Below are positions 8,214 through 35,244 of a DNA stretch of 39,560 bases, one piece after another (within the stretch, counting starts at the first letter, position 1; each line of letters opens with the position of its first letter). Where the stretch lies: assembly GCA_018819925.1 (NCBI GenBank), contig JAHJPG010000131.1, positions 1 to 39,560 of the forward strand, in the 5' to 3' direction. The notes beneath the pieces are model-generated. The model saw nothing but the letters and a program-made list of their open reading frames with translations, had not been told where the DNA came from and ran no database searches. The position numbers and the translations under genes were made by a program. This stretch comes from Pseudomonadota bacterium. GTDB taxonomy: Bacteria > Desulfobacterota > Desulfarculia > Desulfarculales > Desulfarculaceae.

Positions 8214-8684
8214 CTACTCCATCTGATTTTGCTTGCCGCTGAGGTGCTCTATCTCAATGCGGATCACGGCCAGGCCCTTGACCTTCTCCGGGGGAAAACT
8301 CATGTCGCCGTCATAGCCGCACTGGCGGGCGATGGCCTCCAGCCCGGCGTTCTTCTCGGCCATGTCCTCCACCAGCGAGGCCCGGCCCAGGCCCACCACG
8401 CTGCGGTAACGGACGTCCCACTTGCAGGGGTTGGGAGCGCTCATCAACTCCACCGTCTCCATCACCGTGAAACTCACCTGGGGGTTTTCGGCCAGGATCT
8501 CCATCTTCAGGCCCTTGGGGCCGGTGTGCATGTAGATTTTGCCGTCCAGGCAGCCGTAGTTCATGGGCACCACGTAGGGCTGGCTGCCTTGACACATGGC
8601 CAGGCAGAGGATGTTGCCCCGCTCCAGGATGGCCTGGGCTTGCTCGTTGAACTGCTTGTCGGTCTTGCGCAAGGGCCGCCGCAT
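8214..8684 (-). CDS. Pyridoxamine 5'-phosphate oxidase-like (NimA-type) flavin-binding protein
   Basis: 156-residue split-barrel protein. The N-terminal part (about residues 18-50) carries the pattern of a PNPOx/NimA-family strand pair, ending in a VPMNYGCLDGKIYMHT-like segment, with a downstream K-x-E-x-L block. Relatives bind FMN, F420 or heme, and some reduce nitroimidazoles; the substrate here is not known. The ATG at 8684 follows a GGAGG located inside the end of the upstream glycosyltransferase gene, and the two genes are 2 bases apart, so it is the last gene of the hisHF operon. Longer upstream readings in the same frame are shadows of the glycosyltransferase. Confidence 0.85.
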   Translation of the reverse strand: MRRPLRKTDKQFNEQAQAILERGNILCLAMCQGSQPYVVPMNYGCLDGKIYMHTGPKGLKMEILAENPQVSFTVMETVELMSAPNPCKWDVRYRSVVGLGRASLVEDMAEKNAGLEAIARQCGYDGDMSFPPEKVKGLAVIRIEIEHLSGKQNQME

Positions 8685-8686
8685 TC

Positions 8687-9823
8687 TCAGGCCTCCTTCA
8701 TGGTCTGTTGAATTATTTTTTGCCAGGCCGGGGCCTGGGCTTGCCAGGTGAATTTTTCGGCCAGGGGCCGGTAGTTTTCGCGCCGCGTTTGCTCGGGCAG
8801 CCGGGCCAGCGCCTCCAAGGCGGGCAGGAGCTGCCCCGGCTGGTACCGGAAACGCTCCGGATAAAGCTCCGGGTAGACCAGGGCGTCCGGCGCCAGGGGC
8901 CGGCAGCCGGCCCATACCGCCTCGGCCACGCTCAGTCCAAAATACTCCTGCCGGGCGGTGGAAACCACCACGTCGGCCCAAAAAAGCCAGCGCCAATATT
9001 CCGCCCTATCCTCCGCGTGACCCCATTGCACAATGTGTCGTCCTAGGGTCTTTTGGGCCGAGGCAAACACGGCAGGAGGCTTGGCCGGGGCCGGGCCCAA
9101 CACCGCCACCTGGAAATCCAAGCCATCGGCGGCCAGCCTCTCCAAGGCGGCGAAGAACTGCTCCGGGTCCTTGTCCTGGGCCCAGCGATGGTTCCACACG
9201 ATACGCAGCGGGCCGGTGCGGGGCTCACGGACTTGACCGTTTGCCTCGGTGGGATCGATGGGCATGGGCAGGGCGCCGCTCTTGGCCTCGATGTTGGCCG
9301 CCAAGCCCAAGGGCCGCATATCCGGCAGGCGGCTCACCAGCTCACGGGCCGCGCGCAAGAACTGGTCGCGATGGAAATTGGAGTTGAACACCACCCGGTG
9401 AGCGGCCCGGGCGCTGGTCAGGTTGCTGAAGGCCAGATACAGGTCGCGGTCCTGCTGGCTCTGGTCAGCCCGGCCCGGGGCGGGATAGGCCAGCTGGTTT
9501 TCGTGGAACACCACCAGGGCGGGCGCCTTGGCCAGGCTGGGGACCAGGCCTCTGAGTTCGGCCAGGCCCAGCATGTCCGAGCACACCAGACCCTCCCAGG
9601 GCCGGGCCAGGACTTCGGCCGCCTGATCGGCCAAAAAAGCCGCCGCCCCGCGCAGCCGCCAGCGCCAGTGCCGGCCGGGCAGGCCCAGCAGTGTCCAGCG
9701 GGCCGGAACATGAGCCATTAATCCCTGGGCGAAGGCGGCATGGGAGGCGGTGAGGTAGGGCTCCACAAACAAAAGACGCGGGCCGCTGGAGCCCACGTCT
9801 TGAATAAGCAGGTCGTTGGCCAC
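8687..9823 (-). CDS. tRNA-queuosine alpha-mannosyltransferase (QTMAN/GTDC1)-like glycosyltransferase
   Basis: 378-residue glycosyltransferase matching the family first known as DUF3524, whose animal member GTDC1 (QTMAN) mannosylates queuosine in tRNA-Asp. Recognisable blocks are EPYLTASH (21-28), WRWRLRGAA (about 53-61), CSDML (81-85), FHENQLAYP (106-114), FNSNFH (146-151) and a GT4-like TARQEYFGLSVAEA segment near 290-303. The family call is strong; that the bacterial protein acts on queuosine tRNA is inference, and no queuosine biosynthesis gene is in the window. The start is GTG 9823, three bases after the preceding stop, with no clear Shine-Dalgarno, suggesting translational coupling. It sits in the hisH-hisF operon. 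Confidence 0.85.
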   Translation of the reverse strand: MANDLLIQDVGSSGPRLLFVEPYLTASHAAFAQGLMAHVPARWTLLGLPGRHWRWRLRGAAAFLADQAAEVLARPWEGLVCSDMLGLAELRGLVPSLAKAPALVVFHENQLAYPAPGRADQSQQDRDLYLAFSNLTSARAAHRVVFNSNFHRDQFLRAARELVSRLPDMRPLGLAANIEAKSGALPMPIDPTEANGQVREPRTGPLRIVWNHRWAQDKDPEQFFAALERLAADGLDFQVAVLGPAPAKPPAVFASAQKTLGRHIVQWGHAEDRAEYWRWLFWADVVVSTARQEYFGLSVAEAVWAGCRPLAPDALVYPELYPERFRYQPGQLLPALEALARLPEQTRRENYRPLAEKFTWQAQAPAWQKIIQQTMKEA

Positions 9824-9826
9824 AGG

Positions 9827-10630
9827 CTAGCGTATTACGCTCTTGGGCTTGTAATATCCGCCGGGCACGCTGGTGCAGGGGGCCACCAGACAGCCCCGGC
9901 CCAGTACGGTGCCCGGATTGGTCACGCTGTTGCAGCCGGTCTGGCAAAGGTCGCCCATGATGGCCCCGAACTTGCGGCGGGCCACGTGGTACATGGAGTC
10001 ACCGGCCTTGAGATGATAAGGCCGCTCCAAAATTTTCAGGTTGGCCAGCTTGGTGCCCGCCCCCAGGTTCACCTCCCGGCCCAGGATGGAGTCGCCCAGG
10101 TAGGCGAAGTGGCCCGCCTTGGCCCCGTCCATCAGGATGGAATTTTTGATCTCCGTGGTGTGGCCCACCACGCAGCCCGCCCCCACCAGGCAGCCGCCGC
10201 GCAAATAGGCCCCCTGGCGCACCTCGCTGCCCGGGCCTATGTAGGTGGGGCCCTTGAGCAGGGCCCCGGGCTCCACCACCGCCCCGGGGGCTATGTGCAC
10301 CTGGTCGTCCATGAACACCGCCCCGGCGTAGACCACCGCCGCGTCGTCCACTTCCTGGTCGTTCAACAAAACCCGCATTTGGCCCTTGGTGGGGTCGCCG
10401 CCCAGCAGCTTGAAGTCGCAGTCGAAAACCATCCCCCGATGTAATACCACGGTGCGGGGCAGCACTTCGCCGCCCCCGTGCAGCAGGGCGCCGGTGTGCC
10501 CGGCATGGTCCACCAAATCGCTGGTGTAGGCCTTGATGCGGTCCAGGGCATCCCAGACCAGGTCCATCCCTTTGAAAAGTTCCTTGAAGGTGGCCTCTTC
10601 CAGGTCGAACAGGTCTGCCGGAGATACCAT
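9827..10630 (-). CDS. Left-handed beta-helix (hexapeptide-repeat) protein, GlmU-C-like
   Basis: 267-residue protein. An N-terminal helical segment (about 1-50) and a short beta region precede many imperfect hexapeptide turns from about residue 95 to the end. These form a left-handed beta-helix like the acyltransferase half of GlmU-type enzymes (GAVFMDDQVHIAPGA, YIGPGSEVRQGAYLRGG, NLGAGTKLANLK). There is no nucleotidyltransferase domain. The C-terminal GYYKPKSV-type end and the NLGAGT block recall sugar-phosphate acetyltransferases, but the acceptor is unknown. The ATG at 10630 follows GGGAG. The gene lies 9 bases after hisF and 3 bases before the glycosyltransferase. Confidence 0.82.
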   Translation of the reverse strand: MVSPADLFDLEEATFKELFKGMDLVWDALDRIKAYTSDLVDHAGHTGALLHGGGEVLPRTVVLHRGMVFDCDFKLLGGDPTKGQMRVLLNDQEVDDAAVVYAGAVFMDDQVHIAPGAVVEPGALLKGPTYIGPGSEVRQGAYLRGGCLVGAGCVVGHTTEIKNSILMDGAKAGHFAYLGDSILGREVNLGAGTKLANLKILERPYHLKAGDSMYHVARRKFGAIMGDLCQTGCNSVTNPGTVLGRGCLVAPCTSVPGGYYKPKSVIR

Positions 10631-10639
10631 GACTTCTCC

Positions 10640-11419
10640 CTACCAGTATTTGCGGACCTTGATGCCCCGCTCGGATAAATAGTCCTTGATCTGAGCCACG
10701 CTGTAGTGGCCGTAGTGGGTCATGGAGGCGATAAGGGCCGCGTCGGCCTTGCCCTCGGTGAGCACCTCGGCCAAGTGCCGGGGCTCCCCGGCCCCGCCGG
10801 AGGCGATCACCGGAATGGAAACTTGGCTGCTAATCAAGGCGGTGAGGGTCTTCTCGTAACCCTCCTGGGTGCCGTCGGCGTCTATGCTGTTCAGGCATAT
10901 CTCGCCGGCTCCCAGGCGCTGGGCCTCCCGGGCCCACCACAGGGCGTCTATGCCCATGTGCTTGCGGCCGCCGTGGATGACCATCTCGTAGCCGCTGGGG
11001 ATCTTCTCGCTCACCGGCACCTGGAGCACGTCCATGCCCAGCACCACGCACTGGCTGCCGAACTGCCGGGCCCCCTCGGCGATGATCCGGGGGTTGGTGA
11101 CCGCCGAGGAGTTCACGCTGACCTTCTCGGCCCCGGCCATGAGCACCGCGCGCATGTCCTCCACGGTGCGCAGGCCGCCGCCCACCGAGAAGGGAATGAA
11201 GATGCGCTCGGCCACCCGGCGCACCACCTCCAGCATTATGTCCCGGGCCTCGTGGCTGGCGGTGATGTCGTAGAACACCAGCTCGTCGGCGCCCTCCCGG
11301 TAGTAGAACTCGGCCATCTCCACCGGGTCGCCGATGTCCACGTTGCCCTTGAACTTGATGCCCTTGGTGAGCTTGCCGTCGCGCACGTCCAGGCAGGGGA
11401 TGATCCGCTTAGAGAGCAT
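10640..11419 (-). CDS. hisF: Imidazole glycerol phosphate synthase cyclase subunit HisF
   Basis: 259-residue (beta-alpha)8 barrel that takes ammonia from HisH and converts PRFAR to imidazole glycerol phosphate and AICAR in histidine biosynthesis. The two catalytic aspartates are at the expected positions, D11 (IIPCLDV) and D130 (GMDV). The SVGGGLRT and IASGGAG phosphate-binding loops are present. The ATG at 11419 has AAGGAGG six bases upstream and overlaps the end of hisH by 11 bases, as expected for subunits made in equal amounts. Length and motifs are standard, and nothing suggests the O-antigen-type HisF variant. Confidence 0.98.
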
Positions 11420-12056
11420 CGCCGGCCTCCTTGCCGTCCCAGGCCAGGAAGTTGTCCAGGAGCTTCAGCCCGGGCCGTCCCGACTTCTCCGGGTGGAACT
11501 GCACCGCCACCAGCGAGCCCCGGGCCACCGCTGAGGCGAAGGGGAAGCCGTAGTCAGTGACCCCGGCCACCAGATTATCGCCGTCCGGTTGCAAATAATA
11601 GGAGTGCACGAAGTAGAACTCCGCCTGTTCGGGGATGCCCGCGAACACGGGGTGCCGCTTTTTCCAACTCACCCCGTTCCAGCCCATGTGAGGCACCTTG
11701 AGGGGGTTGCCCGCCGTGTCGCGGTGGTCCACCGGGAAGCGCACCACCTTGCCGGGCATGAGCCCCAGGCAGCCGGTGAGGTCCTCCTCGCTGTAGTCGA
11801 AGATGATCTGGGTGCCGAAGCAGATGCCCAGAAACGGCTTGCCTTGGGCCACGGTATCGGCCAGCACCCGGTCCAGGCCCAAACGGCGCAGGCTGGCCAT
11901 GCCCGCCCCGGCCCGGCCCACCCCGGGCAAAATCACCCGCTGGGCCTGGGCGATGAACCCCGGGTCCCGGCTGATGGCGCAGTCCGCCCCCAGGGAGCGC
12001 AGGGCGCGCTCCACGCTGGTGAGGTTTCCGGCGTCATAGTCGATGATGGCGATCAA
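11409..12056 (-). CDS. hisH: Imidazole glycerol phosphate synthase glutaminase subunit HisH
   Basis: 215-residue class I glutamine amidotransferase supplying ammonia to HisF. The catalytic triad is visible: C79 in GICFGTQ, and H188 and E190 in FHPEKS. The start is TTG at 12056, giving the canonical [11 protein letters not shown] beginning, with AAAAGGAG seven bases upstream. A longer frame beginning at an ATG at 12092 would run through that ribosome site and is not favoured. The gene has its own likely promoter (12109-12137) and overlaps hisF by 11 bases. No other his genes lie nearby, so the histidine genes of this genome are probably dispersed. Confidence 0.97.
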
Positions 12057-12108
12057 GGTTGTTCTCCTTTTGGCTTGCCGGAACCAAAGCATCCGGCCAA
12101 GCTTAAGG

Positions 12109-12137
12109 AATATATCACACCCCTAGCCCTGGGTCAG
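12109..12137 (-). promoter_or_regulatory. Candidate extended -10 promoter of the hisHF operon
   Basis: On the minus strand CTGACC lies 17 bases from TATATT, which is preceded by TG at the extended -10 position. The -35 element is inside the last codons of the upstream membrane-protein gene. Confidence 0.5.
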
Positions 12138-12803
12138 CGCCTCCGGCGGGCGGGCCGCCTCCACCGCCCGGGCGGCGGTAAAGAACATGCGGACCGCGAT
12201 CACGATGAAATATATACCAATGACGATGCCGGTGATTTCAAACGGCTGCGTAGGTATGACTCGTGGAGCTAAATAATCCCCTAGACTCGCTTTGTCCGCG
12301 ACAAACAAAACCCACATAAATATATCCGGGACCACCACAACACCCGTGCATGCGAGCGTTACAAACAAACTGATAGACAGTTTCCTGCTATAACCAAAAA
12401 TATCTACCGGCTTTTTTAGTAGGATCCAAATAGCATATAAATATAAAACTGACCTGATAAAATCTAATAACCAACCAAAATAAATCGGCAAATAAGCTAC
12501 CTTAATAATAGATAAGCCTATGGCAATTAGGGGTTCTAATAAGAAAGCCACCAAAAGCAGGTTTATAGTCAGGTCAAGCTTTTTAAAGGCGAAAAATTCG
12601 TTAAGCAGGAGGCGAAAAATAAGGAGCACGCAAATAAATAATGCGCTTAGTATCAGCAAGTAAACATCATACCACTTATCAACGAAAATATCCCTCAGCG
12701 CTCCAGTGACGCGGTATTTCAACGCGGGTCCAGATATCCCCAACACTGCCGCCAAAATAACCATCCAACCAGCGGCTCTCAGCTTGCCAGCCGTTAGCTC
12801 CAT
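12123..12803 (-). CDS. AT-rich multi-span membrane protein of unknown function
   Basis: 226-residue integral membrane protein with about five or six hydrophobic helices (near residues 12-28, 47-68, 78-100, 105-128, 140-165 and 188-212) and no catalytic motif. I do not recognise a family. It is a paralogue of the adjacent broken gene: both begin MELTA-x-KLRAAG, share FRLLLN-x-x-FAF-x-KLD-x-x-INLL in the middle, and end RMFF-x-AAR...ARPPEAL. The ATG at 12803 follows AAGGGGGG. The interior is visibly poorer in G+C than the flanking genes, while the first and last ~50 bases are GC-rich and conserved between the copies, suggesting lateral origin or fast divergence. Confidence 0.75.
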   Translation of the reverse strand: MELTAGKLRAAGWMVILAAVLGISGPALKYRVTGALRDIFVDKWYDVYLLILSALFICVLLIFRLLLNEFFAFKKLDLTINLLLVAFLLEPLIAIGLSIIKVAYLPIYFGWLLDFIRSVLYLYAIWILLKKPVDIFGYSRKLSISLFVTLACTGVVVVPDIFMWVLFVADKASLGDYLAPRVIPTQPFEITGIVIGIYFIVIAVRMFFTAARAVEAARPPEALTQG

Positions 12804-12888: not shown

Positions 12889-13581
12889 CTAACCAGTGGC
12901 CAGCGCCTCCGGCGGGCGGGCTCGGTCCATCGTCCGGGCGGCGGCAAAGAACATGCGAACCAAAACCACGACAAAATATACAGCGGCAACAAAGGCCGCA
13001 ATACCGGCAAGAAACATCGGGATGAAGAATAACGGTGGCAACTTATCCAGGCTTGCCTCGTCAAAACTGGTCATCAAGTAGGCCACACCCATAGTGGCCG
13101 CCATAACCAAAATGCCCCCGAATGAGGCCAACGAACTGACAGCCAACTTCTTGCTATCGCCGAAAAGATTTACCGGTCCCTTTAAAACGACGAAACTAAT
13201 ATAAACATCTACAATCGTCATAAAAATCATAATTATCCACTGAACCCACTCCAGCAAAACCGTTAGGTGGAACGCAGCCAAACCCAACGTAAGAGCAGAT
13301 TGCGCAACGGTCGCGATGATGAGAAGATTTATCGCCGAGTCAAGTTTTCCAAAGGCGAACCAATGATTGAGCAGCAGACGGAAGACCAGCAAAATGTAGA
13401 CACAGATCACCGTCGATATCACTAAATTTGCATTAACAAATAAATTATTGAGAGTTTCCGCCTGTGCCTTGGCACCGCCAACCTTCATCACGGTAAGAAC
13501 TATCACCGAAAAAAATGTCAGGGCTATCGCGAGAATAATCAGCTACCCCGCGGCCCTCAGCTTGCTAGCTGTCAGCTCCAT
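12889..13581 (-). pseudogene. Paralogous membrane-protein gene interrupted by an in-frame TAG at codon 13
   Basis: Read from ATG 13581 (preceded by GGGGGG), the frame begins MELTASKLRAAG and then meets TAG at 13543-13545, exactly where the intact paralogue has Trp (TGG). After the stop the same frame is open to 12889 and encodes ~217 residues with four or five membrane helices and the shared FRLLLN...FAF-x-KLD core and RPPEAL end. A single G-to-A change explains the break. Restart at a later GTG (13506) or ATG is possible and would lose most of the first helix. The gene is AT-rich like its neighbour. Because the rest of the frame is intact, the mutation appears recent, or a shortened protein is still made. 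Confidence 0.7.
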
Positions 13582-15342: not shown

Positions 15343-17235
15343 TTAATCCGCCGCCCGGGCCATCCGGTGCAGGGTCAGCTGCAACACGGCCAAGGCCGCT
15401 GGAGTAACCCCGCTGATGCGCGCCGCCTGGCCCAGGCTGGCCGGGCGCACCCGGGCCAGCTTTTCCTTTACCTCATGGCTCAGGCCCTCGATGCCCTGAT
15501 AGTCCAGGTCTGAAGGCAGGGCCAGGGACTCCTTGGCCCTGAAGCGCTCCACCTGCTCCCGCTCCCGTTCTTCGTAGCCGGAATAGGCCGCCTTGACCTC
15601 CACCTGTTCGGTGGCCGCCGGGTCCAGATGGGCCAACTCGGCCAGGGCCGGGAGCAGGGTGGCCACTTGGGCCAGATCCATGCCGGGCCGGCGCAGAATC
15701 TCCTGGGCCGTGTGAGGCCGGCGCAACGGGGCGCTGCCCAGCCCGGCCAGGCGGCCGTTCACCTCGGCGGTGGGGTTCAGGCGCACCGAGGCCAGCAGAT
15801 CCAGGGCACGCTCCACCTGGGCCCGCTTGGCCTGGAAGGCAGCCCAGCGCCGGTCATCCACCAGGCCCAGCTCCCGGCCCAGGGGGGTCAGGCGCAGATC
15901 GGCGTTGTCCTCGCGCAGGGTGAGGCGAAACTCGGCCCGCGAGGTGAACATCCGGTAGGGCTCCTGGGTGCCCTTGGTGACCAAATCGTCAATCAGTACG
16001 CCGAGATAAGCCTGAGAGCGGTCCAGAATCACCGGCTCCAGCCCTTGGCTGCCCCTGGCGGCGTTTATGCCCGCCCACAAGCCCTGGGCCCCGGCCTCCT
16101 CATAGCCGCTGGTGCCGTTGATTTGGCCGGCCATATACAGCCCGGCCAGGCGCTTGGACTCCAGCCAGGGGGTCAGGTCCCGGGGGTCGCTGTAGTCGTA
16201 CTCGATGGCATAGCCGGGCCGCACGATCACCGCCCTCTCGCAACCGGGCAAGGTCCGCACCATCAGGTGCTGCACCTCGGCGGGCAGGCTGGTAGGGATG
16301 CCGTTGGGGTAGATGAGCGGCGAGTCCAGGCCCTGGGGCTCCAAAAACACCTGGTGGCTGTCCTTGTCCGGAAAGCGCACCACCTTGTCCTCCAGGGAAG
16401 GGCAGTAGCGAGCCCCCACCCCGGTGATGACCCCGGCGTACATGGGGGCCTGGTCCAGGTTGTCGCGGATCAGGGCGTGGGTGGCGGGGGTGGTGTGAGA
16501 TAGCCAGCACACCCGCTGGGGCAGCACCGGGGCAGTGTTCAAGAAGCTGAACATGCGCGGGTTGTCGTCGCCGGGCTGTTGGGGCAGACCCTCCAGGTCC
16601 AGGCTTTTCATGTCCAGGCGGGGGGTGGTGCCGGTCTTGAGCCGCCCCAGGTTGAAGCCCAGTTCCTTGAGCTGGGCCGAAAGGGCGTCGGCCGGCGGAT
16701 CGCCCATGCGCCCGCCCCGGGACTGGGTGAGCCCCACGTGGATCACCCCGCGCAGGAAGGTGCCGGTGGTCAGAACTACCGCCTTGGCCGCGATCTCCCC
16801 TCCCCGGCCCGGCCGGATGCCGGCTACCCGGCCCTGGCGCACCACCAGGCCCGCGACCTCGTCGTCCAGGAGCCACAGGCCGGGTTGATCGGCGCACACC
16901 CGGGCCATGCGGGCGGGGTAGCGGTCAATGTCCACCTGGGCCCGGCTGGACCACACCGCCGGGCCCTTGCCCTGGTTGAGCAGGCGAAACTGGATGCCCG
17001 TGGCGTCGGTGTTGAGCGCCATCTCCCCGCCCAGGGCGTCGATCTCCTTTACCAAATGGCCCTTGGCCAGGCCGCCCACGGCGGGGTTGCAGCTCAGGGC
17101 GGCGATGTGGGCCAGGTTGATGGTGGCCAGCAGGCACTTGGCTCCCAGACGGGCTGCGGCCAGAGCCGCCTCGCACCCGGCGTGGCCCGCGCCCACCACC
17201 ACCACGTCGAAGCTCTGGGGGAGATTCGGGCTCAC
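15343..17235 (-). CDS. mnmG: tRNA uridine-5-carboxymethylaminomethyl modification enzyme MnmG
   Basis: 630-residue FAD protein that with MnmE makes (carboxymethyl)aminomethyl-uridine at the wobble position of several tRNAs. Family marks are the dinucleotide motif GAGHAG (15-20), SCNPAVGG near residue 50, the FAD-domain TGTFLRG block and the helical C-terminal domain. The start is GTG 17235, overlapping the stop of the flavin reductase gene as GTGA, with AAGG upstream, so translation is probably coupled. It is the third gene of the ydcF-like / flavin reductase / mnmG run. No mnmE is in the window. Confidence 0.97.
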
Positions 17236-34020: not shown

Positions 34021-35244
34021 ATGAATGAGGTGCACCTAGAGGAAAATCCACAAAACATTACTTCAGCCCAGATGGTGGTGGCCATCCCTTCCTACAGGGA
34101 AGCCAAACTCATCGGCTACCCCACCACCCAGGCGGCTCAAGGTCTTAAACGGTTTTTCGGCGACAAAGACTGCGTTATCATCAACTGCGATAACAATTCC
34201 GACGACGGCACCAAGGAAGCTTTTTTCGCCGCCGAGACAGAGGACGTGCCCCAGATTTACATCTCCACCCCCCCCGGGGTGCGGGGCAAGGGCAACAACT
34301 TCCAGAATCTGTTCCGCAAGGTGGTGCAGCTTGGCGCCGAGGCGGTGGTGGTGGTGGACGCGGACCTTAAATCCATCACCCCGCAATGGATCAGGCACCT
34401 GGGCGAGCCCCTTTTCAACGACTTCGGCTATGTGGCCCCCCTGTACGTGCGCCACAAGTACGACGGCACCATAACCAACTCCATCGCCTATCCCCTCACC
34501 CGGGCCCTGTACGGCCGCCGGGTGCGCCAGCCCATAGGCGGCGATTTCGGCTTCTCCGGCGAGTTGGCCCGCATCTATCTGGCCAGCCCCTCCTGGACCG
34601 AGGCGGTGAGCCAGTTCGGCATCGACATCTGGATGACCACCCTGGCCATGAACAACAACGTACCCATCTGCCAGGCCTTCATGGGCAGGCCCAAGATACA
34701 TAAGCCCAAGGACCCGGGCTCGGACCTGGGCCCCATGTTCAGCCAGGTGGTGGGCACCATCTTCGAGCTCATGGTGCACAGCGCCGGCTACTGGATGCGG
34801 GTGAAGTGGTCCAAGCCCACCTCCATCTACGGCTTCGGTCTGGGCGAGGTGGAGATGCCGCCGCCGGTGAAGGTGAACCAGGACAAGCTGGCCCAACACT
34901 TCCGCCAGGGCATGGGAACATATCGCGAAGCTTGGCGGGAAATCCTCACCGAGCCCATCTTCCGCAAGGTGGAGGAGGTGGCCAACCTGCCCGAGGAGCA
35001 TTTCGACTTCCCCACCCAAACCTGGGCCAAGCTTCTGTTCGACTACGCCGAAGCTTATAATAGAAAAATAATGGATTCCCAACATCTGTTGGATTCGCTG
35101 ATACCGCTCTATTTCGGCAAGACTTTGTCTTACGTGCGCAAGACCGAGCGGATGAGCGTGCAGCAGGCCGAGGATTTCATCGAAAACGAGTGCATGGTTT
35201 TCGAAGAGACCAAGCCCTACCTGGTGGATCACTGGGTGGCCTAA
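34021..35244 (+). CDS. GT-A glycosyltransferase, GT81 (glucosyl-3-phosphoglycerate synthase)-like
   Basis: 407-residue cytoplasmic glycosyltransferase. The GT-A fold starts VVAIPSYREAK, has NCDNNSDDGT, and the DxD metal motif D113-A-D115 (VVVDADLKS). The acceptor-side blocks YVAPLYVRHKYDG...NSIAYPLTRALYG and PIGGDFGFSGEL resemble the GT81 family (GpgS/MpgS type), which makes glucosyl- or mannosyl-glycerate compatible solutes and related glycolipid primers. The helical C-terminal ~130 residues are also of that type. The exact donor and acceptor are not determined. ATG 34021 follows GAGGAG. A response regulator gene lies 19 bases downstream on the same strand. Confidence 0.82.
   Translation: MNEVHLEENPQNITSAQMVVAIPSYREAKLIGYPTTQAAQGLKRFFGDKDCVIINCDNNSDDGTKEAFFAAETEDVPQIYISTPPGVRGKGNNFQNLFRKVVQLGAEAVVVVDADLKSITPQWIRHLGEPLFNDFGYVAPLYVRHKYDGTITNSIAYPLTRALYGRRVRQPIGGDFGFSGELARIYLASPSWTEAVSQFGIDIWMTTLAMNNNVPICQAFMGRPKIHKPKDPGSDLGPMFSQVVGTIFELMVHSAGYWMRVKWSKPTSIYGFGLGEVEMPPPVKVNQDKLAQHFRQGMGTYREAWREILTEPIFRKVEEVANLPEEHFDFPTQTWAKLLFDYAEAYNRKIMDSQHLLDSLIPLYFGKTLSYVRKTERMSVQQAEDFIENECMVFEETKPYLVDHWVA

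Follow-up and report, generated by a model that had tools for sequence, protein, structure and literature searches.

Animal tRNA contains mannosyl-queuosine, a nucleoside described so far in animals and thought to tune decoding there. Whether a bacterium could make a nucleoside of this kind is the question raised by one gene in a stretch of 39,560 nucleotides (hereafter the window), which derives from a contig of the Desulfarculaceae. A sequence-only reading had assigned this gene to the family of animal QTMAN (GTDC1). Its coordinates for the gene, 8687-9823, proved exact, and the gene was located on the minus strand. The frame is intact, with no internal stop. The four sequence blocks that had led to the assignment were all found in the 378-aa protein: EPYLTASH (residues 21-28), CSDML, FHENQLAYP (106-114) and FNSNFH (146-151).

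QTMAN_N (PF12038) is the Pfam model of the N-terminal domain of tRNA-queuosine mannosyltransferase. It matched residues 17-189 of the window protein over profile positions 2-168 of 168. The match is not a chance one, its score being 181 bits (E = 1.7e-53) where the cut-off is 25. The C-terminal half of the protein gave weak GT4 matches. QTMAN_N was also matched by 60 of 60 relatives, and the placement in the QTMAN family is borne out by these matches together with that of the window protein. Judged from its sequence, the window gene is a bacterial member of the family of the animal queuosine-mannosylating enzyme. Pfam already groups bacterial proteins with QTMAN; the family is thus known, and the gene adds a new bacterial member to it. 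Comparison with five relatives (62-79% protein identity) gave a dN/dS of ~0.35-0.38, which indicates that the gene is under selection and maintained.

Genomic neighbourhood of the QTMAN gene

The genes around the QTMAN gene are listed in Table 1. Their order on the minus strand is hisH, hisF, the hexapeptide-repeat gene, the QTMAN gene and the PNPOx-like gene. The spacers from hisF onward are 9, 3 and 2 bp, and the PNPOx-like gene probably closes the run. The QTMAN gene had been described as holding a stable position inside the hisHF operon. The stability of the position was confirmed, in Desulfarculaceae-like bacteria only, but the gene lies downstream of hisHF. The run of hisF, hexapeptide gene and QTMAN gene is present in all seven of the Desulfarculaceae-like loci that were examined (L021, L025, L028, L030, L031, which is the window, L033 and L034), and the PNPOx-like gene follows the QTMAN gene in L021 and L025 too. 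Within GlmU-type enzymes, the hexapeptide-repeat protein matches only the acetyltransferase part, and this neighbour was absent from all loci examined outside the seven. MnmG, which had been mentioned as another wobble-base modifier, is indeed encoded in the window; the base that it modifies is a different one from that of queuosine, and its presence is not linked evidence.

Table 1. Coordinates of features in the window and of the TGT gene of a Chloroflexota carrier (last line).
Feature	Coordinates	Strand	Remarks
PNPOx-like protein	8214..8684	-	PF12900, 84.7 bits; ATG 2 bp past QTMAN stop
QTMAN-family GT4 glycosyltransferase	8687..9823	-	378 aa, GTG start
Hexapeptide-repeat, left-handed beta-helix transferase-like protein	9827..10630	-	267 aa; 3 bp upstream of QTMAN gene
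hisF	10640..11419	-	TIGR00735, 354 bits
hisH	11409..12092	-	TIGR01855, 210 bits; overlaps hisF start
Membrane protein	12123-12803	-	No Pfam match
Membrane protein	12889-13506	-	No Pfam match
MnmG	15343-17235		
GT-A glycosyltransferase-like protein (by eye)	34021-35244	+	407 aa; no Pfam match at 1e-5
G824 TGT	L180:1750-2988	+	Pocket GGSLG, ~30-residue insert

Two other features of the window were observed. The adjacent membrane proteins upstream of hisH share 38% identity and form a tandem duplicate. The protein on the plus strand has the look of a GT-A glycosyltransferase, with a DAD-like motif.

Across phyla, the neighbours of QTMAN-family genes are diverse and form no cell-surface clusters; GT4 enzymes account for 3 of 54 downstream neighbours. 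With tgt and queA from the genome of the window as queries, no queuosine gene was found in the DNA flanking the QTMAN gene in 110 loci, and no such linkage was seen in 20 Chloroflexota neighbourhoods either. At seven Actinomycetota loci (L066, L086, L093, L105, L114, L118 and L119), thiI immediately precedes the QTMAN-family gene, and the distance between the two is -20 to +3 bp. The product of thiI is the tRNA 4-thiouridine (s4U8) synthase, another tRNA modifier. The adjacency is a conserved pair of tRNA-modification genes at these seven actinomycete loci.

Distribution and predicted fold of the family

A scan of named genomes yielded at least 577 relatives, 80 of which were retained. These 80 include Desulfobacterota, Planctomycetota, Zixibacteria, Actinomycetota, Chloroflexota and Nitrospirota, and also Bacteroidota, Acidobacteriota, Myxococcota, Spirochaetota, one Bacillota strain and Marinobacterium. 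Culturable bacteria with the gene include Marinobacterium iners DSM 11526 (L097), Desulfopila aestuarii DSM 18488 (L101) and Geothermobacter hydrogeniphilus HR-1 (L084). QTMAN_N carriers made up 41 of 297 genomes in the Desulfobacterota sample (control genomes, 0 of 14), 17 of 396 in the Actinomycetota sample and 31 of 301 in that of Chloroflexota. The QTMAN family is widespread and patchy in bacteria, and not a local oddity. Six phage records showed partial general-GT matches only, at 28-31% identity, and the search for plasmid carriers gave no match.

An AlphaFold model of the window protein (pLDDT 94.6, pTM 0.93) confidently predicts a GT-B (GT4) fold. The best structural matches of the model were GT-B retaining GT4 enzymes, with Z up to 32.2. 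Two enzymes that use GDP-mannose, PimA (Z 25.1) and PimB' (Z 25.9), were among the matches, and so was 7qsg, a mannosyltransferase of methylmannose polysaccharide (Z 29.9). The list mixes UDP- and GDP-sugar enzymes, WaaG and glycogen synthases included, and neither donor nor acceptor is readable from the predicted fold. Sequence-based searches of the PDB, by phmmer and by profile, found no solved QTMAN structure.

Conservation was analysed in an alignment of 60 relatives with 33-67% identity to the window protein. Residues S27, H28, R56, H107, E108, Q110, Y113, P114 and N147 are invariant, as are W210, R213, W214, D217, K218 and others. The conserved motifs are H28, HEN (107-109), NS (147-148), WNHRW (210-214), DK (217-218) and E293/E301 (E-x7-E), in which E301 is nearly invariant and E293 is replaced by D in some relatives. 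The window protein has the GT4 catalytic features, an Arg/Lys pair (R213, K218) and E-x7-E. From the general GT4 pattern, we take R213, K218 and E293-x7-E301 to be the likely residues for the phosphate and the donor sugar.

Queuosine genes in the carriers

Absence of a queuosine pathway or tgt from the genome had been named as grounds to reject the role in queuosine glycosylation, and this refutation fails. In the genome of the window (G000), tgt (498 bits), queA (324 bits) and queH (199 bits) are all present, and queA is directly upstream of tgt, with 17 bp between its end and the start of the tgt match. The TGT pocket reads GGLSVG, near the preQ1-type GGLAVG of E. coli; the queuine-salvaging TGTs have GG[LS][AS]G (PMC11570991). 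These three genes and the pocket indicate that the Q-tRNA substrate should exist in this bacterium. The best match to GluQ-RS in the same genome scored 255.8 bits, below the TIGR03838 cut-off of 276.7, and was within a 492-aa frame of GluRS length. On the donor side, a match to TIGR01479 (GDP-mannose pyrophosphorylase-like) with 303 bits covers the nucleotidyltransferase part only, the bifunctional cut-off being 373. A clear TIGR01479 match is missing from several actinomycete carriers.

Co-occurrence of the QTMAN gene with queuosine genes was scored in raw genome counts, uncorrected for shared ancestry. In Desulfobacterota, QueA was over the cut-off in 38 of 41 carriers vs 34 of 39 non-carriers (p = 0.48). 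As QueA is nearly universal in this phylum, the comparison has no discriminating power and only fails to refute the association. QueA or QueH was present in 41 of 41 sampled Desulfobacterota carriers, and QueH or QueG was over the cut-off in 40 of 41. Named carriers from many phyla had a QueA match in 42 of 45 cases, 39 of them over the cut-off. In Actinomycetota, 17 of 17 carriers vs 33 of 63 non-carriers had QueA (Fisher p = 1.3e-4; kinship uncorrected). The pattern was reversed in Chloroflexota, with 10 of 31 carriers vs 35 of 49 non-carriers (p = 0.001; kinship uncorrected). The Chloroflexota carriers without QueA include G824, G854, G870, G902 and G974. Two genomes, G300 and G322 (loci L039 and L075), have QTMAN and QueG without a QueA match, which may reflect assembly gaps or an unusual queuosine route.

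Mutual exclusion of QTMAN and GluQ-RS was considered and rejected, GluQ-RS being present in 6 of 41 carriers vs 5 of 39 non-carriers in Desulfobacterota. The six genomes with both a QTMAN-family gene and GluQ-RS over the cut-off are G267, G244, G285, G095, G123 and G151. As the two are not mutually exclusive, the two decorations may share or divide tRNAs in some bacteria.

Because of the reversed QueA pattern in Chloroflexota, one QueA-less carrier, G824, was searched for TGT. Within the 1.4 Mb searched, a TGT was found with 493.7 bits, against an NCBIfam cut-off of 306.75. The Val of the preQ1-type pocket lies against the queuine diol. The pocket of G824, read ungapped, has Gly at this position; compared with the queuine-type motif, its S and the decisive Gly fit, whereas the fourth residue, L, does not. 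Such a Gly-type pocket makes Q-tRNA by queuine salvage plausible in G824, and the enzyme is a candidate for a TGT that salvages queuine in a bacterium other than the known intracellular pathogens. In the tree, the G824 gene is placed beside QueA-bearing lineages, and ten other QueA-less Chloroflexota sequences form a clade of their own. For this main QueA-less clade, G878 gave no TGT match in 0.8 Mb, a part of the genome that is uninformative on TGT presence. The clade is the main gap in the argument for queuosine as acceptor.

Proposed function and comparison with known systems

Sequence and model together make it probable that the window gene encodes a cytosolic enzyme that transfers a hexose to Q34 of tRNA, the product probably being mannose on tRNA-Asp. 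The enzyme would be a cytosolic, retaining GT-B glycosyltransferase of the GT4 type. The acceptor would be queuosine at wobble position 34 of a tRNA with a GUN anticodon, most probably tRNA-Asp, and the enzyme would attach a hexose to a hydroxyl of the queuosine cyclopentene-diol. Mannose donated by GDP-mannose is the most likely hexose. The transfer would take place after Q-tRNA has been made by TGT, QueA and QueH. We infer the bacterial acceptor, sugar, tRNA and product, the donor and tRNA by homology only with animal QTMAN, which adds mannose to the allylic hydroxyl of queuosine in tRNA-Asp (PMC12518689, PMC12313893, PMC8654956). The reading is favoured by the QTMAN_N matches, the fold model, the queuosine genes of the window's genome, the QueA counts in Actinomycetota and in the named carriers, and the pairing with thiI. 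The reversed QueA pattern of Chloroflexota, the lack of queuosine genes next to the QTMAN gene and its coexistence in 6 of 41 carriers with GluQ-RS, a user of the same base, speak against it.

The sugar and the tRNA could differ from those of the animal enzyme, with Q34 glycosylated by another sugar or in another GUN tRNA (Tyr, His or Asn). This is a sub-case, and competes only with the detail of mannose on tRNA-Asp. GT4 donor choice is not readable, the Z-score list being a mixture of UDP- and GDP-sugar enzymes. GluQ-RS in E. coli uses tRNA-Asp, and carriers that also have GluQ-RS may glycosylate a different tRNA or only part of the tRNA-Asp pool. Such a departure seems somewhat unlikely, given that the characterised animal members are described as mannose-specific and as acting on tRNA-Asp (PMC12518689, PMC12313893).

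The acceptor itself could also be another one. The protein may be an envelope, glycolipid or polysaccharide GT4 enzyme whose likeness to QTMAN goes no further than the fold and the N-terminal domain. Most bacterial GT4 enzymes serve in envelope, glycolipid or polysaccharide synthesis, and the presence of WaaG, PimA and glycogen synthases among the fold matches, the few GT4 enzymes found downstream and the lack of QueA in most Chloroflexota carriers would fit such a role. We regard it as unlikely, since the neighbours across phyla are diverse without cell-surface clusters, H28, HEN, NS, WNHRW and DK are strongly kept family-wide, and QueA is associated with the gene in Actinomycetota. A substrate other than mature Q-tRNA, either a precursor of queuosine or a relative of it (preQ1, epoxyqueuosine or free queuine), would agree with the two named carriers that have QueG and no QueA match, and with the Chloroflexota carriers, which are mostly without QueA. 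However, preQ1 has no diol by established chemistry, gaps in MAGs are common, and the candidate queuine-salvage TGT of G824 would give Q-tRNA directly; a precursor substrate is very improbable.

If the window enzyme is a Q34 hexosyltransferase, it would be open to study in simple hosts. The balance tips slightly towards a wide and patchy set of bacteria, including some queuine-salvaging Chloroflexota, carrying a sugar on tRNA queuosine, with counterparts of the animal enzyme across phyla. The distribution of hexosyl-queuosine in bacteria could then be related to codon use, and bacterial tRNA surveys that targeted only Q or glutamyl-Q would have overlooked one form. In the literature searched, whose scope did not include the original QTMAN paper (Cell 2023), no report of glycosylated queuosine in bacteria was found. 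A demonstration of mannosyl-queuosine in a bacterium would be new.

PimA, PimB' and other GT4 mannosyltransferases resemble the window enzyme in GT-B fold and GT4 catalytic residues, and GDP-mannose users are among its closest folds, but they act on lipids and are not reported here as members of QTMAN_N. GluQ-RS (YadB) is a bacterial decorator of the Q34 cyclopentene-diol, the moiety on which the window enzyme would act; it adds glutamate, however, is aminoacyl-tRNA-synthetase-like, and has no match over the cut-off in the genome of the window. Hexosylation of Q34 in tRNA, the activity proposed here, is carried out by the queuosine galactosyltransferase QTGAL (B3GNTL1), a separate enzyme which acts on the homoallylic hydroxyl in tRNA-Tyr (PMC12518689). 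Animal QTMAN (GTDC1), compared via the Pfam model only, has in common with the window protein the PF12038 N-terminal family, a GT4 C-terminal half and a cell that contains queuosine. They differ in the host, which for the window gene is a bacterium that makes its own queuosine, whereas the animal depends on queuine salvage.
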